A DNA stretch of 64,000 nucleotides. It comes from Gemmatimonadota bacterium (GTDB lineage Bacteria; Gemmatimonadota; Gemmatimonadetes; Longimicrobiales; Gaopeijiaceae). The notes beneath the pieces were generated by a model, which worked only from the letters and a program-made list of their open reading frames with translations, was not told where the DNA came from and made no database searches. Both the position numbers and the translations under genes were made by a program. The stretch lies in NCBI GenBank assembly GCA_022827345.1, contig JAJDTB010000032.1:124001-188000 (forward strand). Reading direction: 5' to 3'. Positions 1,638-64,000 of the stretch are shown in pieces (the stretch's first letter is position 1; every line of letters starts with the position of its first letter).

Positions 1638-4598
<2,961 letters not shown>

Positions 4599-5111: not shown

Positions 5112-6074
5112 ATGATCGTGACACTTCGCACCGAACGGATCGGGACCATCGAGGAGATGCGGGCTTTCGTGGAGGGCGACGAACCGGTGGATTTCGAGTC
5201 CGCCGTACGCTCGTCCGCTTCGAGTACCACGCGCTCAGGAAGCGGACAAGGGCCTGGTGAGGTGGTTCGTCGAGAAGGCAACCGGCTTCTCCGAGACCCA
5301 AGAGGCGACCGCCTCATCGCCCGGCACCGCAGGACCGGGAACATCCGTGATCACCGCCTGAAGCCTCCGGCCCACGCCTTTGCGCGCCGCTACACGCCCC
5401 GGGACATGGCCCTGCTGGCCGAGGTCGACGAGGCCTTCGGCCAGCTCTCCGGACCCGCCACCAAGGTCATCCTGTGGCGCATGCGCCACGTCTACGGCGA
5501 CGAGCCCTTCGAGCGCTTCGCCAGCATCTCCAACGGCCACATCTACAACCTCCGCAAGAGCCGCACTTACCGGACCGGACGCCTCACCTTCCGCAATACC
5601 CAGCCCAAGCCCGTCCCGATCGGCGTGCGCCGCAAGCCACAACCCGACGGCTGGCCCGGCTTCCTGCCCGTTGACACCGTGCATCTCGGCGACCTGGGCG
5701 GCAGGAACGGCATCTACATCGTCAACATCGTCGACGAAGTCACACAGTTCCAACACCTTGGGGCCCTTCGCCGCATCACCCAGCACTTCATGGCCCCCGT
5801 CCTCGAGGACCTCATCTCCGCCTTCCCCTTCACCGTCCACGCCGTCCCTCAGGTCAACGGCTTCCTCTGCGACGACCTCTGTCCCTTCCTCAACTTCCAC
5901 CGGCCTTGCCTCTTCCCCACCGAGGTCACCAGCACCCGCAGCCGCGTCACGAAGACCTACCGCCAGGCAGACGTCGCCACCCGCCACCAGCACTTCCGCT
6001 CGCTCCCCGGCGCCGAACGCTTCCTCCGGCCCGAGGTCACCTTCGACGCCCTCGACCAAAGCGCCGCCGCGTGA
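5112..6074 (+). pseudogene. Degraded IS transposase (DDE integrase-core family)
   Basis: The open frame matches a family of roughly 400-450-residue integrase-core transposases. It begins LRTERIGTIEEMRAFVEG, later carries SNGHIYNLRKSRTYR, and has the first catalytic Asp in VDTVHLGD followed by YIVNIVDEVTQFQHLG. Several lesions are visible. Between about 5190 and 5300 the conserved N-terminal segments VRRTLVRFEYHALRK and ADKGLVRWFVEKATGF occur in the other two frames. After FPFTVHA the sequence jumps in frame to VNGFL...NFHRPCLFPTEV, so the block holding the second Asp and catalytic Glu is missing. The C-terminal tail ends early after FDALDQSAAA. The protein cannot be active. Terminal inverted repeats were not identified. 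Confidence 0.85.
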
Positions 6075-6561: not shown

Positions 6562-9477
6562 ATGAGCGCCGGGATACGGCGGACCGAGCCACGGCAGCTG
6601 CGCACGCTCCTGCCTCCGGCTCTGAGGCGACTGCTGGCGTTTGCGATTGCACTGGCCGGGTTCATGCTGGCCGACACGCTGTATCTGCTCCTGGTGCGCT
6701 TCGCGGGTCGGGTCGACCTGCACCCGTTCGCACTGGGCGCGGAAAGCCTGCCAGGCCTGTACCAGATACTCCTGCTCGCCCATACGGGTGCCGGGCTGCT
6801 CCTGTCCGCCCTGATGCTGGCCTTCCTGGTAGCGCACCTGCCCAGCGTGTGGGTGCGATATCACACGGGGGCAGCGTGGACCGGCGCACCGTACACCGCG
6901 TTCGGGGTTGTTCTCACCGTGAGTGGCCTCTTCATTCTTACCGCAGCCGCGAACGAGGAGAACAGTTGGGCTTGGTGGCTGCACGCCGGGATGGCACTAC
7001 TGGCTGTCGCCGGGTACCTGGCCCATCGCGCGGTAAGCTACACGCGCCCGCCCGCATCTGGGATCGCCCGGTTTCTGGGTGCGTCCACGGCCGCGGGCAT
7101 GGTGCTTTTCGTGGCCCACGGACTGGTGGCTATGGGTGGCTCCGCAGGATCGCCCGGGGTGCCGGGCACGGCAGGTGTGGACGTCGCCGGCGGCGTCAAC
7201 CGGGACGCGAGCAGGCTGTTGAGAGGCGACTTCGGGCCGTCCGGATGGGTGCCTGCGGGCGCCGTGCCGCCCGAGAGCCCGTTTTTCCCCTCACCCGCGA
7301 CCACCACAACCGGAGAACTCCTCGCTGCTTCCATCCTCGCGCCCCGCGAGTCGAACGCGAGTTCCGAGGCAATACGAGCGGAAGCCGCGGCCCGTGGTTT
7401 CGTCGTCGACACGCATATCGGTGCGGAGAGCTGTGTGCGTTGCCATGCTGACGTCGTCGAACAGTGGGCGACTTCGGCGCATCGGTTCGCGTCGTTCAAC
7501 AACCCGTTCTACGAGGCGACGATCGTTGCAATGCGCATGGAGTCCCTCGAGCCCAACCGGTGGATCGAGCGCCACCTGGCGTCCCTCGGTGCTGGCAGGG
7601 ATGAGGTCGGGCGGGCCAAAAGCAAGTGGTGCGGCGGATGTCACGACCCCGTCCTCATGTTCGGCGGATCGATGCTGAACGAGATCGACAGAACCTCTAT
7701 CGAAGCGCAGGCCGGGCTCACCTGTTTGTCGTGTCACGCAATCGACCGCGTCCACGACCGCACCGGGAACGGGAACTACAACATCGCGGATCGATCGGGA
7801 GACCCCTATATCCTCTCGTCCTCGCCACCGGGATCGGTGGGCCGCCTTCTTCACGACGCCGCTCTGAAGGCCCGACCCGCGGTGCACGCCGCGCGCATGC
7901 TCAAGCCGTTCTTTCGGACCAGCAGCTATTGCGCGACATGCCACAAGGTCGGTCTGACCGAGCCCGTCAACGGCTACCGGTGGCTTCGCGGCCAGAACGA
8001 GTTCGACAGCTGGGACGACGGCGGCGTGTCGCTCAACGCGGCCCGCACTTTCTACCTTCCGGAAGCACCGCAGAATTGCCAGGACTGCCACATGCCCCTC
8101 GAGCCCGCGTCGCAGGACCTCGCCGCGGAGAACGGGATGGTGCGTTCGCATCGGTTTCTGGCGGCCAACACTGCTCTCCCCTTCTTGAGGGGCGATACGG
8201 CCACGATGCGCCGCATCGAACACTACCTGCGCGCCGGGAAGGTGCGCATCGACATCTTTGCGGTGCGAGTCGCCGAGCCGGGATTGTCCCTGCCTCTCAC
8301 GAGCGGAGAATCGCAGGTTCCGGCGGCCACACCGGTCACCTTCGATGTCGTGGTCAGGAATCTGGGGGTCGGACATACGTTTCCGGGAGGCACCAACGAC
8401 TCCAATGAGGGGTGGATCGAGTTCATTCTGACGGACACCCTGGGCCGCCGCGTCGCCGCGAGCGGCTTGATCGGAGACGATGGGCACCTGGACCCGTTCG
8501 CTCACACCTTCAAGTCGCTCCTGGTCGACAGTGCCGGCAACGCGATCCACAGGCGTAACGCGCAGGATATCCACACGACCGTATACGCGAATGTCATCGG
8601 TCCCGGAAGCGCCGACCTCGCGCACTATGAGCTGACCCTCCCGGCCACGTTGGCCGGCTCGGCCCTCACGCTCACCGCACGCCTTCTCTGGCGTAAGTTC
8701 GACCGCACATACAGCGATTTCGCCTTCGCGTCGAACCCCGCCGGGTTTCGTGCGTTCGATGCCCCTCCGGAGCTGCCGATTACCGAGATCGCCTCCGACA
8801 CGGTGCAGATCGTCGTGACCAGGCCAGGGAGTGACATCGCCCGTGCACCGGGTTCGCCCAACTCCGACTGGACGCGTCACAACGACTACGGAATCGCGCT
8901 TCTGCTGGAGGGCGACACACGGCGAGCGGCCCAAGCATTCACCCGCGTGGAGGAACTCGTTCCGGGTCGGGTCGACGGTCCGCTCAACCTGGCGCGTACG
9001 GCACTCGCGGAAGGAAATCTCGGGCTGGCCTACGAGGCGCTGGATCGCTCGGAAGCGGTCGAGGCCGGCAACCCGCGGGCCGCCTGGGTCTGGGGCCGGG
9101 TGCTTCAGGAAGACGGCCGTTACGAAGACGCCGTCCTCGCGTACCGGCGTGTCCTCGAAACGTTTCCGGGAGACCGCGCGACCTGGCGTGCGCTGGGCAG
9201 AACCCTCTTCCTCGACGGCCGTCACGAAGAGGCGCTCGCGGCTTTGGCGCAAGTCCTCGAAATCGATCCTGAGGATCGTGTTGCCCACTATCATCGCATG
9301 CTGGCACTTCGGGCGTTGGGGCGTGATGAAGAGGCCGCGCGCGCCGAGGCGGCGTACCTGTACTACGCGGTCGACGAGGCCGCTCAAGAAGTGACGCGGG
9401 CCTATCGAGCCCGGGAGCCGGGCGCCAACATCATGGCGCAACAGATTCCGGTTCATCGCCTGAAGGTCGTCAGATGA
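6562..9477 (+). CDS. Membrane pentaheme c-type cytochrome with C-terminal TPRs
   Basis: A 971-residue protein. The first roughly 200 residues contain about five hydrophobic segments, such as LLAFAIALAGFMLADTLYLL and FLGASTAAGMVLFVAHGLVA, resembling a membrane cytochrome b or anchor region. Five CxxCH heme c motifs follow: SCVRCH (Cys291), WCGGCH, TCLSCH, YCATCH and NCQDCH, to about residue 510. A beta-rich region contains VGHTFPGG, a motif seen in related multiheme proteins. Residues 770-970 form TPR-like helices. The hemes should face the periplasm or cell exterior and carry electrons; the partner is unknown. The stop overlaps the next start by 4 nt (ATGA), so the two genes are translationally coupled. 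No catalytic site such as a nitrite-reductase lysine ligand was recognised. Confidence 0.82.
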   Translation: MSAGIRRTEPRQLRTLLPPALRRLLAFAIALAGFMLADTLYLLLVRFAGRVDLHPFALGAESLPGLYQILLLAHTGAGLLLSALMLAFLVAHLPSVWVRYHTGAAWTGAPYTAFGVVLTVSGLFILTAAANEENSWAWWLHAGMALLAVAGYLAHRAVSYTRPPASGIARFLGASTAAGMVLFVAHGLVAMGGSAGSPGVPGTAGVDVAGGVNRDASRLLRGDFGPSGWVPAGAVPPESPFFPSPATTTTGELLAASILAPRESNASSEAIRAEAAARGFVVDTHIGAESCVRCHADVVEQWATSAHRFASFNNPFYEATIVAMRMESLEPNRWIERHLASLGAGRDEVGRAKSKWCGGCHDPVLMFGGSMLNEIDRTSIEAQAGLTCLSCHAIDRVHDRTGNGNYNIADRSGDPYILSSSPPGSVGRLLHDAALKARPAVHAARMLKPFFRTSSYCATCHKVGLTEPVNGYRWLRGQNEFDSWDDGGVSLNAARTFYLPEAPQNCQDCHMPLEPASQDLAAENGMVRSHRFLAANTALPFLRGDTATMRRIEHYLRAGKVRIDIFAVRVAEPGLSLPLTSGESQVPAATPVTFDVVVRNLGVGHTFPGGTNDSNEGWIEFILTDTLGRRVAASGLIGDDGHLDPFAHTFKSLLVDSAGNAIHRRNAQDIHTTVYANVIGPGSADLAHYELTLPATLAGSALTLTARLLWRKFDRTYSDFAFASNPAGFRAFDAPPELPITEIASDTVQIVVTRPGSDIARAPGSPNSDWTRHNDYGIALLLEGDTRRAAQAFTRVEELVPGRVDGPLNLARTALAEGNLGLAYEALDRSEAVEAGNPRAAWVWGRVLQEDGRYEDAVLAYRRVLETFPGDRATWRALGRTLFLDGRHEEALAALAQVLEIDPEDRVAHYHRMLALRALGRDEEAARAEAAYLYYAVDEAAQEVTRAYRAREPGANIMAQQIPVHRLKVVR

Positions 9478-11249
9478 AGCCGCGCGGTGGGTGCGGCGGG
9501 CGCAAGGGTCTGGAGCGATTGCGGTCCTGGGCGCCCTTGATCGCGTGTGCCGGGGGCGCGTGCGGCGAGCCGGCGACGGAGCGCGCCGTGCCACAGTACT
9601 CGGAAACGTCATACGCGACGAATCCCCGGGGCGAAGTGACGACCCGGCTGCACTTTACCGAGATCACCCGGGAAGCGGGGATCGAATTCCAACATGTGAC
9701 CGGTGCCTTCGGTGAAAAGTGGATGCCCGAAACGCTCGGTAGCGGAGCCGCCTTCTTCGACTACGACAGCGACGGAATGCCCGACCTCCTGCTGGTGAAT
9801 TCGAATTGGTGGCTCGGCCACGAAGGTTCGGGGGAGCGGCCGGTCCAGCGGCTGTACCGCAACCTCGGCGGCGGGCGTTTCGAGGACAGAACGGCACCGG
9901 CGGGCCTCGATGTGTCGCTCTACGGGATGGGAGCGGCCGTGGCGGACTACGATGGCGACGGCGACCCCGACATCTACCTTACCGCGGTGGGCACGAACCG
10001 TCTGCTGCGAAACGACGATGGCGCTTTCACCGACGTGACCGTCCAGGCCGGTGTGGGCGGGGACCCGCCGGGGGGACCGCCCGCGTGGTCGACCGGGGCC
10101 GCCTGGGTCGACATCGATCTCGACGGCTGGCTGGACCTGTTCGTCTGCAACTACGTGCGGTGGACGCCTGAGACCGACCTTTTCACCACGATCGACGGAA
10201 CCAACAAGTCCTACGCCACGCCGCATCAATACCGGGGGGAGTCCTGTCGCCTGTACCGGAACCGGGGACCCGGCGAGAGCTTCGCGGACATCACCGACGC
10301 CGCGGGTGTTCACAATCCTGATGGAAAGTCGCTGGGCGTAGCGGTCACAGACTTCAACGACGATGGCTGGCCCGATCTCGTCGTCGCCAACGACACCCAG
10401 CGCAACTTTCTGTACAGGAACCGGGGCGACGGAAGCTTCGTCGACATCGCCGTGCGCGCCGGCGTGGCCTTCGATGAAGCGGGACGCGCCCGTGCGGGCA
10501 TGGGCGTCGATGTCGCGGATCTGACCGGAGACGGAGGCTGGGCGATCGCCATCGGGAACTTCGCACACGAACCGATGTCCCTGTTCGCGAAGATCGGCGA
10601 CGATCTCTTCCAGGACCGCGCGGGTGCTGCGGGCCTCTCTCGACCGACGCTGATCCCGTTGACCTTCGGCGTCGTGTACGCCGACTTGGACCTGGACGGG
10701 GCGCTCGATATCGTCGCGGCGAACGGCCATATCGAGCCCGGAATAGCCGCGGTCAGACGGGAGCAGAGCTTCGCCCAGCCCCCGCAGCTCTTTGTCGGCG
10801 ATGGCGCTGGAGCGTTCGTCGACGTCAGCGATTTGGCGGGCGCCGATTTCCGGCAGCCGCTCGTGGGGCGTGGTGTCGCCACTGCCGACATCGACGGAGA
10901 CGGTGACCTCGACCTGCTGTTCACGGCAAACAACGGCACGCCCAGGCTTCTGCGCAACGACCTGGATGGGGCATCCGGGATCGGAGTCAGCCTCTTCGGC
11001 GCGGCGCCCAATCACCGTGCGCTGGGCGCGTTGGTCACCGCTTACGCAGCCGGACGGACACAGCGGCGTTTCGTCGCCACGGGCTCGTCGTATCTTGCGC
11101 AGTCTTCGCTCATGCCGCTCTACTTTGGTCTTGGAAACGCGGGGGGCGCGGACAGTGTCGTGGTACGGTGGCCGGTCAGCGGCAGCTTCACGCGGGTGGG
11201 GCACGTCGCGGCGGGTGAGCAGGTGATCCTGAGGGAAACGCCCAGATAA
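9474..11249 (+). CDS. FG-GAP/VCBS-repeat lipoprotein with ASPIC/UnbV domain (CRTAC1-like)
   Basis: A 591-residue exported protein. The N-terminal hydrophobic stretch ends in LIAC, a good lipobox. The body consists of about seven FG-GAP/VCBS beta-propeller blades with Ca-binding loops of the type DYDSDGMPDLL, DYDGDGDPDIYL and DIDGDGDLDLLF. The last roughly 90 residues (LGALVTAYAAGRTQRRFV, then LYFGLGNAG and VVVRWP) are an ASPIC/UnbV domain. Such proteins are extracellular or outer-membrane scaffolds of unknown molecular function. It overlaps the upstream cytochrome by 4 nt and is followed 19 bp later by another FG-GAP protein, so all three are likely one operon and perhaps one surface complex. 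Confidence 0.85.
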   Translation: MKPRGGCGGRKGLERLRSWAPLIACAGGACGEPATERAVPQYSETSYATNPRGEVTTRLHFTEITREAGIEFQHVTGAFGEKWMPETLGSGAAFFDYDSDGMPDLLLVNSNWWLGHEGSGERPVQRLYRNLGGGRFEDRTAPAGLDVSLYGMGAAVADYDGDGDPDIYLTAVGTNRLLRNDDGAFTDVTVQAGVGGDPPGGPPAWSTGAAWVDIDLDGWLDLFVCNYVRWTPETDLFTTIDGTNKSYATPHQYRGESCRLYRNRGPGESFADITDAAGVHNPDGKSLGVAVTDFNDDGWPDLVVANDTQRNFLYRNRGDGSFVDIAVRAGVAFDEAGRARAGMGVDVADLTGDGGWAIAIGNFAHEPMSLFAKIGDDLFQDRAGAAGLSRPTLIPLTFGVVYADLDLDGALDIVAANGHIEPGIAAVRREQSFAQPPQLFVGDGAGAFVDVSDLAGADFRQPLVGRGVATADIDGDGDLDLLFTANNGTPRLLRNDLDGASGIGVSLFGAAPNHRALGALVTAYAAGRTQRRFVATGSSYLAQSSLMPLYFGLGNAGGADSVVVRWPVSGSFTRVGHVAAGEQVILRETPR

Positions 11250-11268
11250 CAGCCAGGGAGACTTCGGC

Positions 11269-14200
11269 ATGAAGCCGCTGAGGCTCAGTTTCGCAATCGC
11301 GGTGGCAAGCACGGGGCTGACGGGGTGCGATGTCGGGGCGCCCGATGCCGCGGAGTTGTTGACAATCCGGTCCATCGGGCTGGCCCACCTCGAGGAGAAC
11401 AGGCTCGAAGAGGCCGCAGCCGAGTTCGGCCGCCTGGTGGAGATGGCCCCGGGCGATCCGGCGGGCTTCGCCAATCTGGGACTCGCCTACCTGCGGATGG
11501 GGCGGCTGGACGATGGCGAGGGCGAGGTGCGCCGAGCCCTCGCAATCGACCCGGAAAACCCCGATGTGCGACTGATCCTCGCAGACATTCTGCTCGCCGG
11601 CGAGCGGGCGGGTGAGGCACGGACGGAACTCGAGCGAGCATTGTCGGCCGACCCGAGGCACGCAAGGACTCTCTACGCTCTGGCGCGTCTAGACGCGGAC
11701 TCGACCGGATCCGAGCCCCGAATCCGTCGCGCGGCGACACTCGGGGATCTCGCCAGTCTCCAGCCCGGCAATGTGACGGTGCGTGTAGAGCACGTGGAGG
11801 CGCTGCTCACGGCCGGGAATGCCGACTCCGCCGCAGCCGGACTCGAAGCACTGCGCCAGATCGTCCCGGTGTTCCCCGTGGAAGGCCAGGATCTCTTCGA
11901 CGCGGCACTTCTCTCGGCCCGAGACGGCGACGATGCGGATGCGCTTGCCGCAGTGTTGCCCTTTCACAACGTCATGCGCACGACGCCGGCCTATCAGCGG
12001 GGTCTGCGCGAACTGCGCGGACCCGGTGGTGTGCTGGCAGGCTTCCCCCTCGTCACCTTCAGCGAAATGGCCGGTGCCGGAGAGCGCGACGCCGGGACCG
12101 TCCTGGCCGGGACCCGCTTTACGGATGTGACCGCGTCAGCAGGATTCCCCCCTGGTGGATCCGCGGCCGATGGGAGTGCGTTTGCGGTCGTCGACTTCGA
12201 CGGGGATGGAGACCAGGATGTCTTCGCCGGCGGCAGTCTGCTTCGCAACGATGCGGGGGTCTTCACCGACGTGACCGGTGACGCCGGGCTCGCCGGGCCG
12301 CGCTCCGCAGCTGCTCTGTTCGCCGACCTCGACAACGACGGGACGCTTGACCTGTACCTGGCCCGTCCCTCCAGCGGCGTGTACTACCGCAATCGCGGTG
12401 ACGGCGCCTTTGTGGACGCCACCGCGTCGCTGGGAGTTGCGCTCCCCTCCGGCACACCTCTCTTCCTCGACTACGATCACGACGGGGATCTCGACCTTTC
12501 ACTCGCCGCGCCCGATGCGGGGATGATGCTGCGGAACAACCTCGACGGTACTCTGGCCGATGTTACCGAACCCGCGGGCACGGAGGGCGGCAGGGCCTCC
12601 GGCGGGTCGGCGGCGTTCGGCGACTTCGACGACGATGACGATCTCGATTTCGTGGTCGCCGACCCCGGGGGGGCGCTGCGGTTGTACGACAACGAGCGTT
12701 CAGGCCGGATGGTCGAACGTGCGGCCGAGCGCGGTCTGGCGGGGGAAGGCCAGGGCGTCGTCTCGGTGGGTGACTACAACAACGATGGGCAGCTCGACCT
12801 CCTCACCGGCCCGCGGGGTGGTCCGGGCATCACCCTCTGGCACAACCTGGGCGGAGGCCGCTTCGAGGCCGACGACCGCCCCGAGGCCCTCCTCGAAGGC
12901 ACGGCAGGCTTCGTCGTTCACGACGCGATCTTCGTCGACTTCGACAACGATGGCTGGCTCGACATCGCCCTCGCCGGCGAGTCCCGTTCGGGCGAAGGGG
13001 CCATCAGGCTCTACCACAACGCTGCCGCCGGGCGCTTCGACGACGTGTCGCATATGGTACCGCCGCTCCCCCCGATGCGTCGCATTGCGGCGGCGGACTT
13101 CGGCAGCGACGGAGACCTCGACCTTTTCGCGTTGACCGCCGACGGCTCGGGAAGGCTGCTGCGGAACGACGGCGCAAACGCGAATCGCTACCTCAAGATG
13201 CGGCTGGTCGGACTCTCCACCGGCAGCGGAAAGAACAACCACTTCGGTCTCGGAGCCCGGATCGAAATCCGCGCAGGCGCCCTCTACCGGACGCTCGTCG
13301 TCGCCGAGCCGGAGGTGCACGTCGGGCTCGGCCAACGCCCGCAGGCCGATGTCGTGCGCGTGCGATGGCCGAACGGCGTGCCCCAGAACATCCTGTACAG
13401 CGGCGCGAACCAGTCGATCGTGGAGGAACAGATCCTCAAGGGTTCGTGCCCGACGCTCTTCGCCTGGAACGGTGAGCGATTCGAATTCGTCACAGATGTC
13501 ATGTGGAAGAGCGCGCTCGGGATGCCGGTCGGACTCATGGCGCGGGGCGACGCCCAATACGCCCCACCCGGGGCGTCGCAGGAGTACCTGCGCATTCCGG
13601 GCGATGCGCTGCGCGAACGAGACGGCAGCTACGAGTTGCGCATCACCGATGAGCTATGGGAGACCTTCTATGTGGACAAGGTGGAACTGATTGCCGTCGA
13701 TCATCCCGATTCGGTGGACGTCTTCGTCGACGAGCGCTTTGTCCCCCCGGGGGAAGATGTCCAGCTGGAGCTCCATCAGGTCTCGGACAGGCGGCGGCCG
13801 CAGTCCGCATCCGACCACCTGGGACGGGACGCGCTCCCGGCACTGTCAGCGCTCGACGATGTGTATGTGGGCGGTTTCGAGCCGCTCCGCTACCAGGGCG
13901 TAAGCGAGTTGCACGACCTCGTGCTCGATTTGGGGGATTTTGCGCCCGCGCAGCCGGTGCGGCTGTACCTGCGCGGGTGGATCTTCCCGACCGACGCCAG
14001 CATCAACGTCGCGCTGTCACAATCGCAGGTACTCGCGACGGTGGCCCCGTATCTGCAGGTGATCGGGGACGACGGCGAGTGGGAGACCGTGGTGCCGGCG
14101 CTCAGTTTCCCTTCGGGAAAGAACAAGACGATCGTACAGGACCTGACCGGACTGTTTCCCACTGCCGACCACCGCGTTCGCATCCGTACCAACATGAACA

Positions 14201-14745
14201 TCTACTGGGACGAGGTGTTCTTTTCCCTGGGTGCCGTGGAGACGCCAACTCGTCTGACTGTGCTCGGGCCCGCCGAGGCTGACCTTCGCTACCGGGGGTT
14301 CTCCAGGGAATTCCGCAAGGGGGGGCGTCATGGCCCTCCGTGGTTCGACTACGAGTCGGTGTTGACGGAGCCGCGCTGGCGACCGATCGTCGGGCGATTC
14401 ACTCGTTACGGTGATGTCACGCCGCTGGTAGAGGAGTCGGACGACCTGTATCCCATCATGGGACCCGGCGACGAACTGGCCCTGCGTTTCGACGCCTCGG
14501 GGCTTCCCCGCCCGCCAGCGGGGTGGACGCGCGACTTCCTGATCTATACCGAGGGTTGGCTGAAGGACGCCGACATGAACACTGCATCCGGTTGGAGGGT
14601 GGACCCCCTGCCCTTCCACGGCATGGCCGAATATCCCTACGGCTCCGGTGAATCCTACCCGCATGCGGAGGTTGTCGCCGAATGGCACACGCGTGAGTCT
14701 GTCCCGGCGTCAGGACCGGACGAAGAGAATCGGTCACCGAGGTAG
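11269..14745 (+). CDS. TPR plus FG-GAP/ASPIC lipoprotein with large C-terminal region
   Basis: A 1,158-residue secreted protein with lipobox LTGC near residue 20. Residues about 25-270 are TPR-like (LAHLEENRLEEAAAEFGRLV, FANLGLAYLRMGRLDDGEGE). About 280-630 form FG-GAP/VCBS blades with DFDGDGDQDVF, DYNNDGQLDLL and DFDNDGWLDIAL loops. About 635-720 is an ASPIC/UnbV domain (FGLGARIEIRAG, VHVGLGQRPQADVVRVRWPNG). The final roughly 430 residues begin SCPTLFAWNGERFEFVTDV and form a less common beta-rich region seen only in larger members of the family. Third gene of the cytochrome operon, 19 bp downstream. The layout suggests a surface complex around the multiheme cytochrome; the role is unknown. 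Confidence 0.83.
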   Translation: MKPLRLSFAIAVASTGLTGCDVGAPDAAELLTIRSIGLAHLEENRLEEAAAEFGRLVEMAPGDPAGFANLGLAYLRMGRLDDGEGEVRRALAIDPENPDVRLILADILLAGERAGEARTELERALSADPRHARTLYALARLDADSTGSEPRIRRAATLGDLASLQPGNVTVRVEHVEALLTAGNADSAAAGLEALRQIVPVFPVEGQDLFDAALLSARDGDDADALAAVLPFHNVMRTTPAYQRGLRELRGPGGVLAGFPLVTFSEMAGAGERDAGTVLAGTRFTDVTASAGFPPGGSAADGSAFAVVDFDGDGDQDVFAGGSLLRNDAGVFTDVTGDAGLAGPRSAAALFADLDNDGTLDLYLARPSSGVYYRNRGDGAFVDATASLGVALPSGTPLFLDYDHDGDLDLSLAAPDAGMMLRNNLDGTLADVTEPAGTEGGRASGGSAAFGDFDDDDDLDFVVADPGGALRLYDNERSGRMVERAAERGLAGEGQGVVSVGDYNNDGQLDLLTGPRGGPGITLWHNLGGGRFEADDRPEALLEGTAGFVVHDAIFVDFDNDGWLDIALAGESRSGEGAIRLYHNAAAGRFDDVSHMVPPLPPMRRIAAADFGSDGDLDLFALTADGSGRLLRNDGANANRYLKMRLVGLSTGSGKNNHFGLGARIEIRAGALYRTLVVAEPEVHVGLGQRPQADVVRVRWPNGVPQNILYSGANQSIVEEQILKGSCPTLFAWNGERFEFVTDVMWKSALGMPVGLMARGDAQYAPPGASQEYLRIPGDALRERDGSYELRITDELWETFYVDKVELIAVDHPDSVDVFVDERFVPPGEDVQLELHQVSDRRRPQSASDHLGRDALPALSALDDVYVGGFEPLRYQGVSELHDLVLDLGDFAPAQPVRLYLRGWIFPTDASINVALSQSQVLATVAPYLQVIGDDGEWETVVPALSFPSGKNKTIVQDLTGLFPTADHRVRIRTNMNIYWDEVFFSLGAVETPTRLTVLGPAEADLRYRGFSREFRKGGRHGPPWFDYESVLTEPRWRPIVGRFTRYGDVTPLVEESDDLYPIMGPGDELALRFDASGLPRPPAGWTRDFLIYTEGWLKDADMNTASGWRVDPLPFHGMAEYPYGSGESYPHAEVVAEWHTRESVPASGPDEENRSPR

Positions 14746-27054: not shown

Positions 27055-27275
27055 CGACCTCACCTTGCGTAACGCCTTGGCCTCCCGATATAGGGCCTGG
27101 GGCACCCCTGGGCAAGGGCGCTTGGCCGGTCCGTTCCCCGGGGCCCTCGCCGGATGGCTGGTCGCGGTTCCCTTGTCGTGTCGAGCGCTCACGCCTATCC
27201 TGCCGCTACGAAGCCCGCCCCGGGTAAGAGGCCGGCGCCGAGCGGTCGACCGACCCTGCAACAGAGGTGCCCGCG

Positions 27276-29624
27276 GTGACCTTTAGACCTTGCGTACCAA
27301 GTGTTTCGGCTCTGCGGTCCACCAGCGGTTTGCCCCTATGTCTGGTGGCGGCTCTAGGTGCGTGCGGCCCCGAGGGAGACCCGTACGATCTCTCCCCCGG
27401 GCCGACCTACGTGGGCAGCGGTTCCTGTATCTCCTGCCACTCGACCGAGGTCGAGCGGTGGGCCGGATCGCACCACGACCTCGCGATGCAGGATGCCACC
27501 TCGGAAACCGTCCTTGGCAACTTCGAGGGAGCCAGGTTCGAAGACTCTGGGTCCACCTGGACCTTCTCGCGAACCGACGAACAGTTCGTCGCAGGCCTGG
27601 AGGGCACGCCGGGTTCACCGCAGGAGTACCGAGTCAAGTACGCCTTCGGGGCCACTCCACTACAACAGTACATGGTCGAGTTCCCCGGCGGACGGTACCA
27701 GCTGCTTCCGATCGCCTGGGATTCCCGGCCCGCCGACCAGGGTGGTCAGCGTTGGTTCAACGTCCAGACCGAGTCGGGACTCGTCTCCGGCGACACACCG
27801 CACTGGACGGGTCCCCTCCTGAACTGGAACTCGATGTGCGCCGATTGTCACTCGACGGGCGTGCGAAAGAACTACGCGCCTGAAACTGATCGCTTCTCGA
27901 CCGAATGGGCCGAGATCGACGTGGGGTGCGAGGCGTGTCACGGACCTGGCTCGGGCCATCTGGCCTGGGTGAAAACGACCGATCCCGGTCCCGCCGGGGT
28001 TTCCGCCGACACGGAAGAGGGTGACCGTGGGTTCGTTGTCCACTTCGAGCCGCACGATCCGGGAGTCTGGATACCGGACCCCCGGACGAGAACCGCGCAT
28101 CCCCGCCCAGGACCCGCTGGCGACGGACAACTGGACGTCTGCGGGCGGTGCCACTCTCGCCGGTCCGAAATCACCACAGGATATCGGCACAACGCGGCGC
28201 TGCTCGACTCGCACGAACCGGCGCTGCTGGACGAAGGGCTCTACTTCGCGGACGGGCAGATGCAGGATGAGGTCTACGTCTGGGGGTCGTTCGTGCAGAG
28301 CGCCATGTACCGTGCCGGCGTCACGTGCAACGACTGTCACGATCCACATTCACTGGGGCTCCGCGAGGAGAAGAATGGCTTGTGCGCACGGTGCCACGTT
28401 TCGTCCACGTTCGACAACGCAGATCACCACTTCCACGCAGCCGGTACCGAGCCGGCGCTTTGCGTCTCATGCCACATGCCGTCGCGGACCTACATGGGGG
28501 TTGACGCCAGGCGCGACCACTCGTTTCGCGTGCCGGACCCCGAAGCGTCGGAAGCGGTGGGCGCCCCCGACCCATGTACGACCTGCCATTCGGGGATGTC
28601 GGGGGCTGAGGCAGCGGCCGAGATTGCCGGGCGGCTGGAGGGTGTCCCGGTCAACCGGACACGGTTCCACGCCAGAGCGATGGCCGCCGCCCGCATCGGG
28701 GATCCGGAAGGCATTCGCGGGCTCCATGAGCTATTGGAGGACCCCCGGGCCCCCGCGATCACCAAAGCAACGGCGCTGACGCTGCTGGGGTCCGACCAGG
28801 GCCCGGTACGCACAGCGGCGGTTCGGCGAGGGTTGCAGGATGTCGACCCCCTGGTGCGGCTCGGGGCATTGCGTGGCGTCGGGAACTCTCCCACCCCGGA
28901 GCTCGTGACCCTGGCTGCCCCCCTTCTCGACGACCCGGTTCGTTCGGTTCGCCTGGCGGCGGTCGAAGCGGTGGCACCCCTGGCCGGTCCGTCGTACGCG
29001 ACCTCGCGGCCTGGTTCGGCGCCGGCGGAGCGCCTTGAGGAGTTCCGTAACGCGCAGCTCGCCCGCGAGGAGCGGCCGGAGGCCCAGCTGAATCTGGCAT
29101 GGCTGGCCGCGCTACAGGGCGCATACGACGATGCGGAGAGGGCACTGAGGCGGGCGATCCGGCTGGACCCCACCTTCGTCCCGGCCTACGTCAACCTCAC
29201 GGAGGCGTATCGGCGCAGCGGCCGCGATCTCGAGGGCGAGCCACTCCTGCGATCCGCACTGGGACTGTCGCCCCAATCGGCGGACCTGCACCACGCACTC
29301 GGACTCCTGCTCGTGCGGAATGGACGCGCCGACGAGGCAATGGCGCTACTGCGCCGAGCCGCGGAACTGGATGAGCAGAATCCCCGCTACGCCCATGTCT
29401 ACGCGGTGGCCCTGCAGTCGGAGAACGATACATCCGCGGCCCGGACGGTTCTGGAGCAGGCTCTGGCCCGCCACCCCTGGGATCGGGACCTGTTGGTCGC
29501 CCTGGCCGTACTGCATCGCGACGCCGGCCGGCTGGAGCAGGCCCTCGGGTACGCCCGGACCCTGGTCGAAGCACACCCATACGACTCCGCAGCCCGAGCG
29601 CTCATTTCACAGCTGGACCGGTGA
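27276..29624 (+). CDS. Octaheme c-type cytochrome lipoprotein with HEAT/TPR C-terminus
   Basis: A 782-residue protein starting at GTG 27276 (CAGAGG upstream), with lipobox LGAC at Cys30. An in-frame GTG at 27267 is an alternative. Eight CxxCH motifs are visible: SCISCH, MCADCH, GCEACH, VCGRCH, TCNDCH, LCARCH, LCVSCH and PCTTCH, all in the first 440 residues. Next comes a HEAT-like region (VRTAAVRRGLQDVDPLVRLG, then VRSVRLAAVEAV), then TPRs to the C-terminus (LNLAWLAALQGAYDDAERAL). This arrangement occurs in proteins that handle electrons at the cell surface, but no substrate is known. It sits divergently from the GH31 gene and convergently to a sulfatase, an unexpected place for a cytochrome. 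Confidence 0.85.
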   Translation: MTFRPCVPSVSALRSTSGLPLCLVAALGACGPEGDPYDLSPGPTYVGSGSCISCHSTEVERWAGSHHDLAMQDATSETVLGNFEGARFEDSGSTWTFSRTDEQFVAGLEGTPGSPQEYRVKYAFGATPLQQYMVEFPGGRYQLLPIAWDSRPADQGGQRWFNVQTESGLVSGDTPHWTGPLLNWNSMCADCHSTGVRKNYAPETDRFSTEWAEIDVGCEACHGPGSGHLAWVKTTDPGPAGVSADTEEGDRGFVVHFEPHDPGVWIPDPRTRTAHPRPGPAGDGQLDVCGRCHSRRSEITTGYRHNAALLDSHEPALLDEGLYFADGQMQDEVYVWGSFVQSAMYRAGVTCNDCHDPHSLGLREEKNGLCARCHVSSTFDNADHHFHAAGTEPALCVSCHMPSRTYMGVDARRDHSFRVPDPEASEAVGAPDPCTTCHSGMSGAEAAAEIAGRLEGVPVNRTRFHARAMAAARIGDPEGIRGLHELLEDPRAPAITKATALTLLGSDQGPVRTAAVRRGLQDVDPLVRLGALRGVGNSPTPELVTLAAPLLDDPVRSVRLAAVEAVAPLAGPSYATSRPGSAPAERLEEFRNAQLAREERPEAQLNLAWLAALQGAYDDAERALRRAIRLDPTFVPAYVNLTEAYRRSGRDLEGEPLLRSALGLSPQSADLHHALGLLLVRNGRADEAMALLRRAAELDEQNPRYAHVYAVALQSENDTSAARTVLEQALARHPWDRDLLVALAVLHRDAGRLEQALGYARTLVEAHPYDSAARALISQLDR

Positions 29625-56197: not shown

Positions 56198-56332
56198 GGT
56201 CAACTCTCCTGCTGAGGGTCAGACTCACGAATCCGCACAGGACCGCGGTCGACCCGCGGATCGGGCGCGGTTCGCCCTACCGTGACCGTGATGTACTATA
56301 GGTGGTGGATCCCCTTCACGCACCGGCATCTC

Positions 56333-59300
56333 ATGTTTCGACCGCGTCTTCTCTACTTTCTGCTGCTGTTTGCTCCCGCCCTGGCTGGCTGCCGCCCACC
56401 GGAACCGGACGAGGCGGCTCCGGCGCAACCGCCGCTGTTCACCCTGATGCCGGCCTCGCAAACCGGCGTTACCTTCGCGAATCGGCTGCCGGAGACCGCG
56501 TCGCGCAACGGGCTGGCCTACCAGTATTACTACAACGGGGCCGGCGTGGCCGTGGGAGATCTGAACGGCGATGACCTCCCCGATCTCTACTTCACCGCAA
56601 ACATCGGTCCGAACCGCCTCTATCTGAACCGGGGAGGAATGCGCTTCGAGGACGTGACGGAGCGTGCCGGGGTCACGGGACCGAGCGACGGATGGGCCAC
56701 CGGTGTGACCTTCGCCGACATCGACGCCGATGGTCGGCTCGACATCTACGTCAGCCAGGCGGGTCCGTTCGGACAGGACGACCTGCGCCGCAACGTGCTG
56801 TACATGAACGACGGGGTGGTGGACGGGATTCCCGCCTTCAGGGAAGCGGCGGCAGCCTACGGTCTGGACGATCCCGCCTATTCGACGCAGGCGGCGTTCT
56901 TCGACAGCGACTCCGACGGGGACCTGGACATGTACCTCATGAACCACGGGATCCCGGCCTACCGGTCACTGTTCCAACTCTCGACAGGACGCTCGCCGCT
57001 CGAAGTCGACAAGCTCTATCGCAACGACGGCGGGCGATTCGTGGACGTGTCGACCGCGGCGGGCCTGGTCGATACGAATCTCGGGTTCGGCCTCGGACTG
57101 AGCGTGGGAGATCTCAACAACGACGGGTTTCCCGACATCTATGTGGGCAACGACTACTTCGGTCCAGACTACCTTTACGTCGGCAGCGCGGATGGCACCT
57201 TCCACAACGTGATCGACGAGTCCATGGGGCATATCCCGCTCTCCTCGATGGGCTCGGACATTGCCGATATCGATGGGGACGGATGGCTGGACCTCGCCGT
57301 TCTGGAAATGGATCTCCCGACGCACTACGGCCGCAAGACCATGGAACTCGGCACGGAACAGGAGCGCTTCGCCCTCATGGTCCGCGAGGGTCTGCACCGC
57401 CAGTACATGGCCAATGCCCTTCAGTGGAACCGGGGAACGCGTGACGGTCGCCTGCCGGTTTTCTCGGATGTGGCTCGGCTCGCCGGGGTCGCTCGAACCG
57501 ACTGGAGCTGGGCGGCGCTTTTCGCCGATCTGGACAACGACGGCCGACAGGACATGTTCGTAACCAACGGCATGGCCGGCGTGAGCATCAATCCCGACTT
57601 CGACGCGTACATGGCTCGCAGGATCGCCGAGGTGCAGGCTGTGCATGGGGGCACGACCGAGGCGCTCCTCCTCGAACTCATCCAGAACATGCCCCGCCGG
57701 AAAACCCCCAACCATGCCTTTCGGAACGAAGGGGATCTGGTCTTTACCGACCGCGCGACCGAGTGGGGGCTGGACCTTCCGGCGTATTCCACAGGCGCCG
57801 CATACGCGGATCTCGATCGGGACGGCGACCTCGACCTGATCGTAAGCAACGTACTCGAAGAGGCGTTCGTGTACCGAAACAACCTCCGAGAGACTGTTGG
57901 TACGCACTTCCTCCGGGTCCGGCTCACGGGTCCGCCGGGGAATCCCTCCGGCATCGGAGCACGCGTGCGACTGACGGCCGGCGACAGGCAACAAACTCGG
58001 GAGCTGCAACTCACCCGCGGATACCAGTCGTCCGTCGAGCCGGTCTTGCACTTCGGTTTGGGGCAGAGGGCGACCGTGGACACCCTGGAAGTCCGTTGGC
58101 CGGACGGGTCGGTCCAGACGCGCAGCAATGTGACTGTGGACGCCACACTCACCCTCGATTACGCAGAGGCCCAGCCGGCCGCCCCGGTCCCCGCCCCGGC
58201 ACCTGTCTTCGTCAATGCCGAGGCCTCGCTCCTTCCTGTGCCCTCCCACACAGCCAGTCTGTCCGCGCTGGATTCCAGGCTGGAGCCCTACCCGACGAGA
58301 CGTGAACGGGTCGCGTTGGCCGTGGGGGATCTCGACGGAGACGGCCTGGACGATTTCGTCTTCGGAGGCAGTCAGAGCCGACCATCCGCCGTGTACGTCC
58401 AGCAACCGGACAGGACCTTGGCGGCCGTCACCGAACTCCCCGCCGGCGCGACCATGTCGGAAACCACGGCCGCCGCCATCTTCGACGCCGATGGAGACGG
58501 CCTGAGCGACATCTGGACCGTGGCCGGCCACGCGGCCGCCCTGAGCCGAGCCGAGCACCGACACAGCCTGTTTCTCAATGCGGGCGGCGGCCGATTCCGA
58601 CCGGCAGCGGAGGCGGCAACGCGACAGGCTGGACAGGGAACGACACTCGCCCCCGGCGACTTCGACGGCGACGGCCGCGTAGACCTCTTCGTCGGCGCCT
58701 ACACCGCACCCGGCAGCGGGGCTCCGACGGGAAGCCGTCTGCTACGCAACAACGGGGACGGTTTTGTAGATGTCACCGCCGAAGTCGCGCCGACCCTGGC
58801 ACGCCTGGCGACCGTAACCGACGCGCTGTGGGCGGATCTGGACGGGAACGGTGCGAGCGACCTGCTGGTAGCCGGGGAGTGGATGCCCCCTGCCCTGCTG
58901 CTCAACGAAGACGGGAGGCTCCGCGACGCCACGGCCGCCGCCGGCCTGGATGGTCTCTCCGGCTGGTGGCAGACCCTGGCCGCAGCAGACTTTGATCGCG
59001 ATGGCGATCTCGATGTTGTCGCCGGCAACATCGGCCTGAGCTACCCCTATTCCCCATCACCCGAGGCTCCCTTCGAACTCCATGTAGGAGATTTCAACGG
59101 CGATGGGGAGGACGAGCGCGTCCCGGGCTATTACGAGGAGGGCATTGTCTACCCATGGTTCGGTCGGGACCGTCTGGAATCGATGCTCCCCTGGGTCCCA
59201 CAGCTCTTTCCCACGCTCGACGCGTTCGCGCGGGCAACGCTGTCCGACATTCTCGGGGCAGGCAGGATGCAGACAGCGCGGCGACTCGAAGTCAATACGC

Positions 59301-59686
59301 TGGCCAGCTTGTACCTCGACAACGACGGTGCAGGCAGACTGACCGCGCGCTCCCTGCCCCGCGCGGCCCAGATCTCGGCTGTGACGGGCGCTGTGCCCGC
59401 CGACTTCGACGGTGACGGAGCCCTCGATCTGGTCGTGGCGGGCAACTTCCATGCTCTCGATCAGAGCGTAACCAGGCTGGACGGCAGCGTGGGTCGCTTC
59501 CTCCGCGGCGATGGCTCCGGCGGCTTCGATCCCGTGCAGCCGGGTACCAGCGGGCTCTGGCTGCAGGGTGTCGTGCGCGAACTTGCGTTGCTGCGTGTGG
59601 GCACCGACGGCGACCCCGCCATCCTGGCCGCCGTCTCCGGGGGCCAGGCGATTCACGTACGTCCGGTCAAACCCCCGGCTTCCTGA
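56333..59686 (+). CDS. Large FG-GAP/VCBS lipoprotein with ASPIC/UnbV domain (CRTAC1-like)
   Basis: A 1,117-residue protein with the start MFRPRLLYFLLLFAPALAGC, a clear lipoprotein signal. ATG 56291 is in frame and would add 14 residues; ATG 56333 is favoured because the signal peptide begins there, but no clear RBS decides. Calcium-loop blades such as DLNGDDLPDLYF, DIDADGRLDIYV and DLDRDGDLDLIV form a first propeller. An ASPIC/UnbV domain (about residues 525-615: IGARVRLTAGDRQQ, VLHFGLGQRA, VRWPDGS) follows, then a second set of blades (DLDGDGLDDFVF, DFDGDGRVDLFV). Such proteins commonly sit beside SusC/SusD pairs, as here with the convergent SusCD. Molecular role unknown. Confidence 0.86.
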   Translation: MFRPRLLYFLLLFAPALAGCRPPEPDEAAPAQPPLFTLMPASQTGVTFANRLPETASRNGLAYQYYYNGAGVAVGDLNGDDLPDLYFTANIGPNRLYLNRGGMRFEDVTERAGVTGPSDGWATGVTFADIDADGRLDIYVSQAGPFGQDDLRRNVLYMNDGVVDGIPAFREAAAAYGLDDPAYSTQAAFFDSDSDGDLDMYLMNHGIPAYRSLFQLSTGRSPLEVDKLYRNDGGRFVDVSTAAGLVDTNLGFGLGLSVGDLNNDGFPDIYVGNDYFGPDYLYVGSADGTFHNVIDESMGHIPLSSMGSDIADIDGDGWLDLAVLEMDLPTHYGRKTMELGTEQERFALMVREGLHRQYMANALQWNRGTRDGRLPVFSDVARLAGVARTDWSWAALFADLDNDGRQDMFVTNGMAGVSINPDFDAYMARRIAEVQAVHGGTTEALLLELIQNMPRRKTPNHAFRNEGDLVFTDRATEWGLDLPAYSTGAAYADLDRDGDLDLIVSNVLEEAFVYRNNLRETVGTHFLRVRLTGPPGNPSGIGARVRLTAGDRQQTRELQLTRGYQSSVEPVLHFGLGQRATVDTLEVRWPDGSVQTRSNVTVDATLTLDYAEAQPAAPVPAPAPVFVNAEASLLPVPSHTASLSALDSRLEPYPTRRERVALAVGDLDGDGLDDFVFGGSQSRPSAVYVQQPDRTLAAVTELPAGATMSETTAAAIFDADGDGLSDIWTVAGHAAALSRAEHRHSLFLNAGGGRFRPAAEAATRQAGQGTTLAPGDFDGDGRVDLFVGAYTAPGSGAPTGSRLLRNNGDGFVDVTAEVAPTLARLATVTDALWADLDGNGASDLLVAGEWMPPALLLNEDGRLRDATAAAGLDGLSGWWQTLAAADFDRDGDLDVVAGNIGLSYPYSPSPEAPFELHVGDFNGDGEDERVPGYYEEGIVYPWFGRDRLESMLPWVPQLFPTLDAFARATLSDILGAGRMQTARRLEVNTLASLYLDNDGAGRLTARSLPRAAQISAVTGAVPADFDGDGALDLVVAGNFHALDQSVTRLDGSVGRFLRGDGSGGFDPVQPGTSGLWLQGVVRELALLRVGTDGDPAILAAVSGGQAIHVRPVKPPAS

Positions 59687-62296: not shown

Positions 62297-64000
62297 TCAA
62301 AAGCTCGTCCGGACGCCGAAGGACAGACCCTTCGTCTGGGGAGCCGGGAAATGACGGTAGTACTGCCACGCGCTGTTGACGCCTCCGGAGATGTCGCCTT
62401 CCGGATCACCCATCGAGAAGTCCGACCAGACCCCCAGGTTGCGGCCGGTCACATACACGGTTGCGCGATCGACACCGATGCGTCCCAGCACGTCTCTTGG
62501 CACGTCGTAGGACAACGTCACTTCACGCAGCTTGATGAACTCGCCCGACTCGATCTGACCCTCGTGCTTGTCGTAGCCGTACATGAGTTCGTAGTACACC
62601 GGATCCTTCACCACCGATTTGGTATTCGGCTGGCCGGTCGTCTGATTGATCCCATCGAGGGTCACAACCTGATAGCGGTCGTTCGTGAAGATATGCCGTC
62701 CGTTCCGACCGGTGGTGTACTGGATCTCGAAATTGAGGATCTTGCTGCCCTTACGCATGTCCCACAGGCTCGACAGCCCGAAGTTCTTGTAGCGAATGGT
62801 GCTTCTGAGGTTGGCAAGCCAGTCCGGCAGCGCGGAACCGAGCGGGATCTGGCGCTGGGTCCGAATCGGGAGTCCGTAACAGTCTCCCTTCTGGTTGCGT
62901 CGGACGCTGGCGCAGTTCTCGTCACCCAGGATGAGCGCGCCCGTGGGTTGATCGGGGAAGCAGAAGCTGCCCGTCTCGGGTACGCAATTCCGCTGGTAGC
63001 CGTAGCCCCAGATCACACCGTAGGGCAGGCCCTCCATGATGCGAATGCTCGGCCAGGAGTAACCCGCCAGGTGGAGGTTGTCGATCCCCGGCGCCAACTC
63101 GATCACCGAGTTGCGGTTGCGCGTCCAGTTCGCGGCCAGATCCCAGGTGAAGTCCGACATCTGGAGCGGGCGCCCACGGACCGAGACCTCAAACCCCTTG
63201 TTGCGGAGATCCCCGGCGTTGCGGACGATGGAAGTGTACCCGCTGGATGCCGACGCCGGAACCCGGAAGATCTGATCGTAGCTCTTCTTGTTGTAGTAGG
63301 AGAAGTCCAGGCTCGCGCGGTTGTTCAATCCGCGCAACTCCAGCCCGACCTCGACCTCCGATGTCGACTCCGGTCTGATGTTCGGATTCCCGAGCTGGGT
63401 TCCCTGAACAAACCCTACCTGCCCCCGGAACGGGAAACTGACTGTCGTCGGGTCGAACTGGTAGCTGCCCTGGTGCACCCCCGGCGCACTCGCCGCATAG
63501 TACCGCGACGAAAGGCTGTACGGTGGTGCGTCGTTCCCCACCCTTGCGTAGGATAGGCGCACCTTGCCGTACTGCAGCCACGAGGGACGCCAGTCCATCG
63601 CGTCCGTGAAGATGACGCCGACGCTAGCGGACGGGTAGAAGTAGCTGTTGGCGTCCTTCGGCAGCGTTGAACTCCAGTCGTTGCGCCCGGTCAGGGTGAG
63701 ATACGCCCATCCCTGGTAGTCCGCCGTGAGCTGCCCGTACGCCCCGAGCAGGCGTCGCATCTCCGGCAGATCGGCGAAGACACGCTGGTCCTCGAAGTTC
63801 TCGACGTTGTAGTAGTCCGGGATAACGATGGTGGAGCCCCGGCCCGTGATTCGGCTGGTCTCCGTCATCCAGATGTTCCCGCCGATCAGTCCGCTTACGC
63901 TGAACCCCGGCGAGACCTCGCGTGGATCCACGGTCAGAACCAGATCGTTGTTGATCTGCGTGCGATTCAGCTTCTCCTGCTGCGTCGAACCGGACGATAG
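62297..64000 (-). CDS. SusC/RagA-type TonB-dependent outer-membrane receptor, C-terminal part
   Basis: The open frame runs off the window edge, so about 567 C-terminal residues are visible. TonB-dependent barrel features include YLTLTGRNDWSSTLP, YFYPSASVGVIFTDA, VRLSYARVGNDAPPY, NPNIRPESTSEVEVGLELRG, RASLDFSYYNKKSYDQIF and LREVTLSYDVP, with a terminal aromatic (SFGVRTSF). These are typical of the SusC class. It would pass oligosaccharides or peptides through the outer membrane with SusD, whose gene begins 30 bp downstream. The plug and carboxypeptidase-like domains lie beyond the window. Confidence 0.92.
   Translation of the reverse strand, partial: LSSGSTQQEKLNRTQINNDLVLTVDPREVSPGFSVSGLIGGNIWMTETSRITGRGSTIVIPDYYNVENFEDQRVFADLPEMRRLLGAYGQLTADYQGWAYLTLTGRNDWSSTLPKDANSYFYPSASVGVIFTDAMDWRPSWLQYGKVRLSYARVGNDAPPYSLSSRYYAASAPGVHQGSYQFDPTTVSFPFRGQVGFVQGTQLGNPNIRPESTSEVEVGLELRGLNNRASLDFSYYNKKSYDQIFRVPASASSGYTSIVRNAGDLRNKGFEVSVRGRPLQMSDFTWDLAANWTRNRNSVIELAPGIDNLHLAGYSWPSIRIMEGLPYGVIWGYGYQRNCVPETGSFCFPDQPTGALILGDENCASVRRNQKGDCYGLPIRTQRQIPLGSALPDWLANLRSTIRYKNFGLSSLWDMRKGSKILNFEIQYTTGRNGRHIFTNDRYQVVTLDGINQTTGQPNTKSVVKDPVYYELMYGYDKHEGQIESGEFIKLREVTLSYDVPRDVLGRIGVDRATVYVTGRNLGVWSDFSMGDPEGDISGGVNSAWQYYRHFPAPQTKGLSFGVRTSF

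Follow-up and report, generated by a model that had tools for sequence, protein, structure and literature searches.

A conserved gene module linking a membrane pentahaem cytochrome to UnbV/ASPIC proteins in Gemmatimonadota and other phyla

Introduction

What does a membrane-anchored multihaem cytochrome do when its gene is followed by genes for UnbV/ASPIC proteins, a family for which no bacterial role was found in the literature searched? The question is raised by a 64,000-nucleotide stretch of DNA from a Gemmatimonadota bacterium (contig JAJDTB010000032.1, positions 124,001 to 188,000), here called the window and numbered from its first nucleotide, in which three genes follow one another on the + strand. 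CYT (6562..9477, +; 971 aa) is a membrane pentahaem c-type cytochrome with an N-terminal transmembrane (TM) domain and a C-terminal TPR domain, as delineated by its open reading frame (ORF), Pfam, motifs and alignment. ASP1 (9474..11249, +; 591 aa) is a CRTAC1-like FG-GAP beta-propeller with six DxDxDG-type motifs and a C-terminal UnbV_ASPIC domain (11019-11219), while ASP2 (11269..14745, +; 1158 aa) is a lipoprotein (lipobox Cys20) that combines a TPR region (11377-11691), an FG-GAP propeller and an UnbV_ASPIC domain (13249-13419). The CYT and ASP1 reading frames overlap by 4 nt and the gap between ASP1 and ASP2 is 19 nt, a layout described in an earlier note on this DNA and confirmed by the ORFs. 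That note proposed a surface complex which carries electrons outward or oxidises an extracellular substrate. Through a gene order followed here over ten named phyla, some of the ASPIC genes are connected with a specific and testable redox protein. The conservation of the three genes across phyla suggests one respiratory electron-transfer unit and offers a first hint at the bacterial function of this propeller family. With moderate confidence, we consider the module probably to be a quinone-linked unit of electron transfer in the inner membrane, with periplasmic CRTAC1-like partners.

Results

Relatives of CYT were collected by a scan of GTDB, most records of which are metagenome bins; at least 467 were found and the best 80 loci kept. 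One of these (L135) had no cytochrome ORF and ten had less than 800 b downstream, which left 69 loci for counting an ASP1-type gene on the same strand within 1.5 kb downstream (flank of at least 800 b). Such a gene lies directly downstream of CYT in 54 of the 69 loci (53 if the frame-split L143 is not read from its larger piece), spread over ten named phyla, the phylum names being taken from the record titles. It is adjacent in 24/26 Acidobacteriota, 9/9 Gemmatimonadota, 6/6 Planctomycetota, 3/3 Pseudomonadota, 2/2 Bacteroidota, 2/2 Latescibacterota, 2/2 Verrucomicrobiota, 2/5 Fidelibacterota, 2/3 Rhodothermota, 1/2 Calditrichota and 0/8 Poribacteria loci, and in the single locus that carries no phylum name (1/1); six of the nine Gemmatimonadota loci are genomes that also figure in the genus survey described below. 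The two genes are closely spaced, 44 of 53 gaps between stop-to-stop frames being 41 nt or less or overlapping, although true gaps can be longer. The earlier note had proposed neighbourhood conservation as a check, and the order of cytochrome then ASPIC gene is indeed kept in most relatives across phyla. When ORFs of at least 150 aa around the 80 loci were clustered, no other family was found in more than 7 loci, so that the module largely stands alone.

A second sample was drawn from the phylum itself, in which CYT was found at E 1e-30 or better in 56 of 395 genomes. Twenty-four further phylum genomes with a cytochrome match were searched for PF07593, and in 22 of the 22 testable genomes at least one CYT copy has a PF07593 gene directly downstream (21 by coordinate comparison and G239 by reading the DNA; G096 and G104 were excluded at a contig edge). 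The second sample may overlap the GTDB loci, and some of its genomes, for example G161 and G239, have a second cytochrome match that lies at a contig edge or outside the check. Since ASPIC genes are numerous in these phyla, with 2-16 matches in each of the 24 genomes among the matches listed, the neighbourhood might be merely incidental. However, a density of about 2.3 ASPIC matches per Mb (rounded genome sizes) predicts fewer than 0.01 per genome in the 3 kb downstream on the strand of the cytochrome. Such a match is present in 22 of 22 testable genomes, and an incidental arrangement is refuted by these counts.

Closer to the window, CYT is present in nine of the 23 genomes of its genus, its own genome included. 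In the eight others ASP1 is directly downstream without exception (8/8). Seven of them have ASP2 next on that contig, and in the remaining one (G007) ASP2 begins before the contig ends. In G030, from another genus of the same family, CYT has ASP1 next to it and ASP2 at a distance of about 9 kb downstream. Another family of the order is represented by two loci of G047 and one of G057, and there ASP1 adjoins cytochromes that are 30-32% identical to CYT. Nearest neighbours by CYT identity and by ASP1 identity agree moderately, in 29 of 50 cases (Spearman 0.66), and it is plausible from this comparison that the two genes were transferred as a unit. On a quick haem-domain tree the phylum labels require 17 changes where the minimum is 10, an excess which may also reflect paralogues or mis-binned contigs. 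In a related genus, two further ASPIC genes precede the cytochrome (L163 3101-9489; G157:C27), so that arrays of ASPIC genes occur around the cytochrome.

The main mechanistic feature of CYT, overlooked in the earlier note, is its TM domain with conserved b-haem-type histidines. Five TM helices are predicted at aa 19-191 (6616..7134, +), as helices of a low-confidence model, and alignments mark four putative b-haem ligands within them: His74 (6781-6783, +), His92 (6835-6837, +), His141 (6982-6984, +) and His155 (7024-7026, +). The alignment comprises 79 rows, made up of 70 of the 80 GTDB loci and nine others, with the window CYT included. All rows but one (78 of 79) have His74 and His141, the exception having a short N-terminus, and all four histidines are present in 41 rows. 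A second large branch retains the equivalents of His74 and His141 (38/38 aligned N-termini) and has no further TM histidine that reaches 30% among these 38. The spacings H-18-H and H-14-H are maintained in relatives of about 30% identity, and on the haem-domain tree, from which the TM columns had been left out, the four-His and two-His states require two changes. The b haems of cytochrome b, NarI and similar proteins are held by pairs of histidines on two helices, and the conserved pairs of CYT fit such b-haem binding. From the alignment we infer that nearly all members hold one b haem close to the periplasmic side, and that the branch to which the window belongs holds a second. By our reading of the sequence, positive residues lie between helices 2 and 3 and between helices 4 and 5, and helix 5 runs straight into the haem domain, which fits a topology with the N-terminus inside and the haem domain outside.

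The pentahaem (PHC-like) domain (7414..8841, +), delimited by motifs, profile matches and alignments, contains CxxCH motifs at aa 291, 357, 388, 457 and 506 (7432-7446, 7630-7644, 7723-7737, 7930-7944 and 8077-8091, all +), and cytochrome c assembly proteins are encoded in the host genome. The description of gene 1 as a membrane pentahaem cytochrome is borne out by these five motifs together with hydrophobic segments at aa 19-190, and the motif conservation, whose absence the earlier note had named as a refutation, is found in all 79 of the 79 aligned relatives. Of the 79 GTDB loci with a cytochrome ORF, 20 have a first motif of the form CX4CH. The GTDB scan used patterns around motifs two and five, one or other of which is present in 78 of the 79 GTDB cytochrome ORFs, so that the invariance of those two is partly by construction and the other three motifs alone provide a free test of conservation. 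The first part of the haem domain resembles chain 5ze8, which we take to be the c552 of T. tepidum (E 3.7e-13, best stretch 106 profile positions), and with its motifs this significant similarity fits a haem domain of the PHC (c552/ExtKL) kind. Among Pfam profiles, PF22113 (MtrC/MtrF domains II/IV) matches aa 355-526 as a single domain at 32.6 against a cut-off of 30 bits, Cytochrome_C554 is barely over its cut-off (21.8 against 20.8 bits) and PF03264 (NapC/NirT) falls under it (14.9 against 24.1 bits). The C-terminal TPR domain (about aa 770-935; 8869..9366, +) was placed by Pfam and the model; in a structure search of the PDB with the CYT model, the best 50 rows are TPR proteins or TPR-sized alignments.

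Four histidines outside the motifs, His307, His442, His530 and His605, are invariant in 79 of 79 rows and are candidate distal ligands. With four such residues for five haems, the remaining haem may have an open site or some other ligand. This is the starting point of the strongest alternative, in our judgement an unlikely one, namely that CYT is a periplasmic oxidoreductase whose open c haem converts a small molecule with quinone as partner, the ASP proteins binding the substrate or serving as a scaffold. CYT has a weak match to the selenoprotein MccSep (9wt8; E 0.0085), in which the selenocysteine sits just past a GHxxPxG motif common to CYT (alignments with the wild type and U325A), and ExtKL has been linked to selenite reduction by its authors (PMC5877670). 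However, the fifth haem of CYT may have a non-His or non-conserved ligand, and a threonine stands in CYT at the selenocysteine position of MccSep.

By their FG-GAP repeats and PF07593 matches (43.8 bits for ASP1 and 32.4 for ASP2 against a cut-off of 23.4), ASP1 and ASP2 are assigned to the UnbV/ASPIC (CRTAC1) family, and ASP1 resembles human CRTAC1 (PDB 9etn) at E 1.2e-17. The FG-GAP and UnbV_ASPIC domains of both proteins are over their Pfam cut-offs, as are the TPRs of CYT and ASP2, which the earlier note had recognised in genes 1 and 3. Among 52 aligned ASP1 sequences no cysteine reaches 90% conservation, whereas His74 (50/52), His419 (51/52) and the aspartates of the DxDxDG-type motifs do; with no conserved cysteine but conserved His and Asp, ASP1 looks like a binding protein and not an electron carrier. 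About 430 C-terminal residues of ASP2 have no Pfam assignment. They form a predicted all-beta domain (13447..14703, +) with a jelly-roll at 13783-14238 (pLDDT 90.8 for the predicted fold), for which a profile search against PDB sequences gave nothing at E up to 5 and Foldseek nothing with E below 0.001. The top structural match of the domain is a phage tail protein (Z 9.2), and the jelly-roll bears some likeness to discoidin and CBM35 modules, the best CBM32/CBM35 rows having Z 8.4-8.9 and rmsd 3.1-3.5 over 111-124 residues. The predicted jelly-roll points to binding rather than catalysis, although the likeness may be merely that of a common arrangement. The window encodes a third ASPIC protein at 56282-59686, with 1134 aa and 13 Ca-type motifs, beside which no cytochrome was recognised.

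Where these proteins reside bears on the surface complex of the earlier note, moving electrons out of the cell or oxidising an extracellular substrate. Folds of the ASPIC/CRTAC1 and jelly-roll types often serve extracellular binding. ASP2 is a lipoprotein with a clear lipobox (LTG|C), CYT has the PF22113 match given above, and a divergent gene for a TonB-dependent receptor lies directly upstream of CYT in three genus genomes (L070 10910-14251, L071 1641-5129, L072 15223-18564); its relative in the window is at the far end (62297-63931) and not beside CYT. PHC relatives are, moreover, found in electroactive bacteria (PMC11976967). Several observations nonetheless make such a complex improbable. 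The genome has no MtrB/PioB match, although divergent porins may escape such a search, and no outer-membrane porin was seen beside the cytochrome among the scanned window ORFs near the module, nor any recurring porin family; of the neighbour families, none in more than 7 of 80 loci, the eight representatives of the most frequent that were annotated are of permease, amidase, kinase, SDR, symporter, glutamine synthetase, MFS and FGE types. The residue after the lipobox cysteine is Asp in ASP2 and Q, G, R or S in its orthologues, so that no constant sorting residue is seen. The two genes had been described as encoding lipoproteins, which holds for ASP2 and is likely for ASP1: the window ASP1 misses the lipobox filter, which seven of nine same-family orthologues pass (L077, represented by a wrong ORF, was left out of the counts). 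A broader screen was passed by 14 of 51 ASP1 and 6 of 25 ASP2, lipobox detection in stop-to-stop ORFs being crude. By eye, the ASP1 of some other phyla carries a leader of the Sec type (L114, L122) or is anchored by a single membrane helix (L158), and in three Acidobacteriota loci (L125 7396-9144, L132 7547-9283, L138 7355-9145) an extra upstream ASP1 has a Tat-like leader, so that the cytochrome is flanked by ASP1 on both sides, with no Tat-like leader flagged on the downstream copy. What finds support in the earlier interpretation is a conserved unit with a redox protein, while its outward-facing surface complex is not supported.

A further alternative arises from the local surroundings. Genes for a BNR/sortilin protein, GH127 enzymes and a sulfatase come directly after the module in the genus, and beyond these are GH31, an octahaem TPR cytochrome, L-arabinose isomerase (AraA) and an FGGY kinase (AraB). 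The locus at 14884-49690 of the window comprises three GH127, GH31, two sulfatases, AraA, the FGGY kinase, an aldose epimerase, DUF5695 and a class II aldolase-type gene, and serves an arabinose-containing and probably sulfated glycan. The module might accordingly be part of this locus and oxidise its sugars or products, in keeping with its position directly before the BNR/sortilin, GH127 and sulfatase genes and with the co-occurrence of CYT, ASP1, ASP2 and the BNR/sortilin orthologue in the same nine of 23 genus genomes. We regard this as very improbable: none of the window's glycan-locus genes was found beside the module in G030, the 80 loci have no widespread neighbour family, and no sugar dehydrogenase was recognised among the scanned window ORFs. 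The arabinose-gene setting is seen in the genus of the window alone, and by this distribution the sugar context appears to be local.

Other features of the window lie outside the module. A second TPR cytochrome (27267-29624), which has eight CxxCH motifs as well as a match to HEAT, is encoded 12.5 kb downstream of the module and has a 62.7% identical counterpart in a syntenic stretch of L080. Upstream, an ORF at 5112-6074 is by eye partly reminiscent of a degraded integrase or transposase, and a Pfam scan of it gave no match. The G+C content falls to 0.56 at 2001-4000, against 0.61-0.69 elsewhere in the window, possibly marking a foreign or non-coding stretch.

Discussion

The inner-membrane, quinone-linked unit that we favour could work as follows. 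The N-terminal helices of CYT would bind a b haem near the periplasmic face through His74 and His141 and, in the branch of the window, a second b haem deeper in the membrane through His92 and His155. Through these haems electrons would pass between the quinone pool and the periplasmic c haems, five in number, by way of either quinol oxidation or quinone reduction. The C-terminal TPRs of CYT and the N-terminal TPRs of ASP2 may provide docking surfaces by which ASP1 and ASP2 would join CYT in a complex, and the Ca-type propellers of both, with the ASP2 jelly-roll, could bind a substrate or partner on the side of the periplasm or of the outer membrane. A wider proposal, which we offer tentatively as one that may quite possibly hold, is that the fusion of a b domain to a PHC-type pentahaem domain, together with CRTAC1-like propellers, forms a widespread respiratory complex of which the literature searched gives no description. 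Its two-b-haem form would be fit for transmembrane electron transfer and its one-b-haem form would act on the periplasmic side only, while bacterial UnbV/ASPIC proteins would acquire a first role in a quinone-linked enzyme, as its redox-partner or substrate-binding subunits.

A number of observations weigh against the quinone-linked unit. The AlphaFold2 model of CYT, built from 14 sequences, is of low confidence (pLDDT 56.5, and below 50 over most of the haem region) and shows no haem geometry. When the TM part was scanned alone, no Pfam family was found above cut-off, and its match to a solved b-type cytochrome, 5zle, is weak (E 0.08). An adjacent ASP1 is missing in 8/8 Poribacteria, 3/5 Fidelibacterota, 2/26 Acidobacteriota, 1/2 Calditrichota and 1/3 Rhodothermota loci, ASP2 is found in only 25 of the 69 loci, and the cytochromes of the G047/G057 family lack the TPR end. 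In the genus, moreover, the module is retained or lost with at least one gene of the island, and its co-occurrence is not specific; the genus profile is not taken to prove a functional link, since the BNR/sortilin orthologue shows the same pattern. An identity of the TM part with cytochrome b561 was considered and rejected, its sole match being the weak one to 5zle. The haem ligands of b561 are placed on four different helices, and the histidines of CYT are on two.

If the quinone-linked unit is correct, it would provide a further electron route, linked to quinones, in Gemmatimonadota, Acidobacteriota and Planctomycetota. The one-haem and two-haem forms of CYT would then offer a natural comparison of two energetic designs.

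The nearest known relatives of the haem domain are in the PHC family, which includes ExtKL, Gsu2801 and the sPHC and lPHC of cable bacteria and is described as structurally homologous to the pentahaem c552 of T. tepidum (PMC11976967). CYT shares with it the five c-haem motifs, a W..S.H segment after the first motif and a GH..P.G-type segment after the last, but differs in its extra multi-helix TM domain with b-haem-type histidines, its TPR domain and its ASPIC gene partners; the matched PDB chains have 435 and 450 aa, and only haem-domain stretches of them align with CYT. CbcL, the inner-membrane quinol oxidase of Geobacter, likewise unites c-haem motifs and a putative b-haem TM domain in one polypeptide, with nine motifs in its N-terminal part and six HydC/FdnI-like helices in its C-terminal part (PMC6295460). 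In CYT the order is reversed, there are five motifs, five helices and another histidine pattern, and Pfam gives no HydC/FdnI match. ImcH and CymA, of the NapC/NirT type, resemble CYT in having membrane helices N-terminal and a multihaem domain C-terminal, but according to the same source their helices number one or three, and part of the protein is NapC/NirT-like. Judged by these sequence features, CYT is not a member of the CbcL, ImcH or CymA groups. From MtrC and MtrF it differs in overall architecture, being a TM protein with five motifs and a single PF22113 domain.

On the side of the partners, ASP1 has the FG-GAP propeller and ASPIC domain of CRTAC1 (9etn), and ASP2 adds TPR and jelly-roll domains. 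Compared with the human CRTAC1 architecture (PMC10477339), the ASP proteins had no EGF-like match in the Pfam scan, and their genes adjoin a cytochrome. The nearest arrangement on record occurs in HZS-like clusters, which contain a CRTAC1-family (FG-GAP) gene adjoining haem-enzyme genes (PMC12758564); those clusters encode homologues of hydrazine synthase (HZS) alpha and beta-gamma and no pentahaem membrane cytochrome. A description of the module was not found in the open-access literature searched, PMC12758564 and PMC3174227 included, most subscription papers and bioRxiv preprints being outside this scope. The parts of the module are known from these systems, while their combination in one gene set and its breadth across phyla appear to be new.

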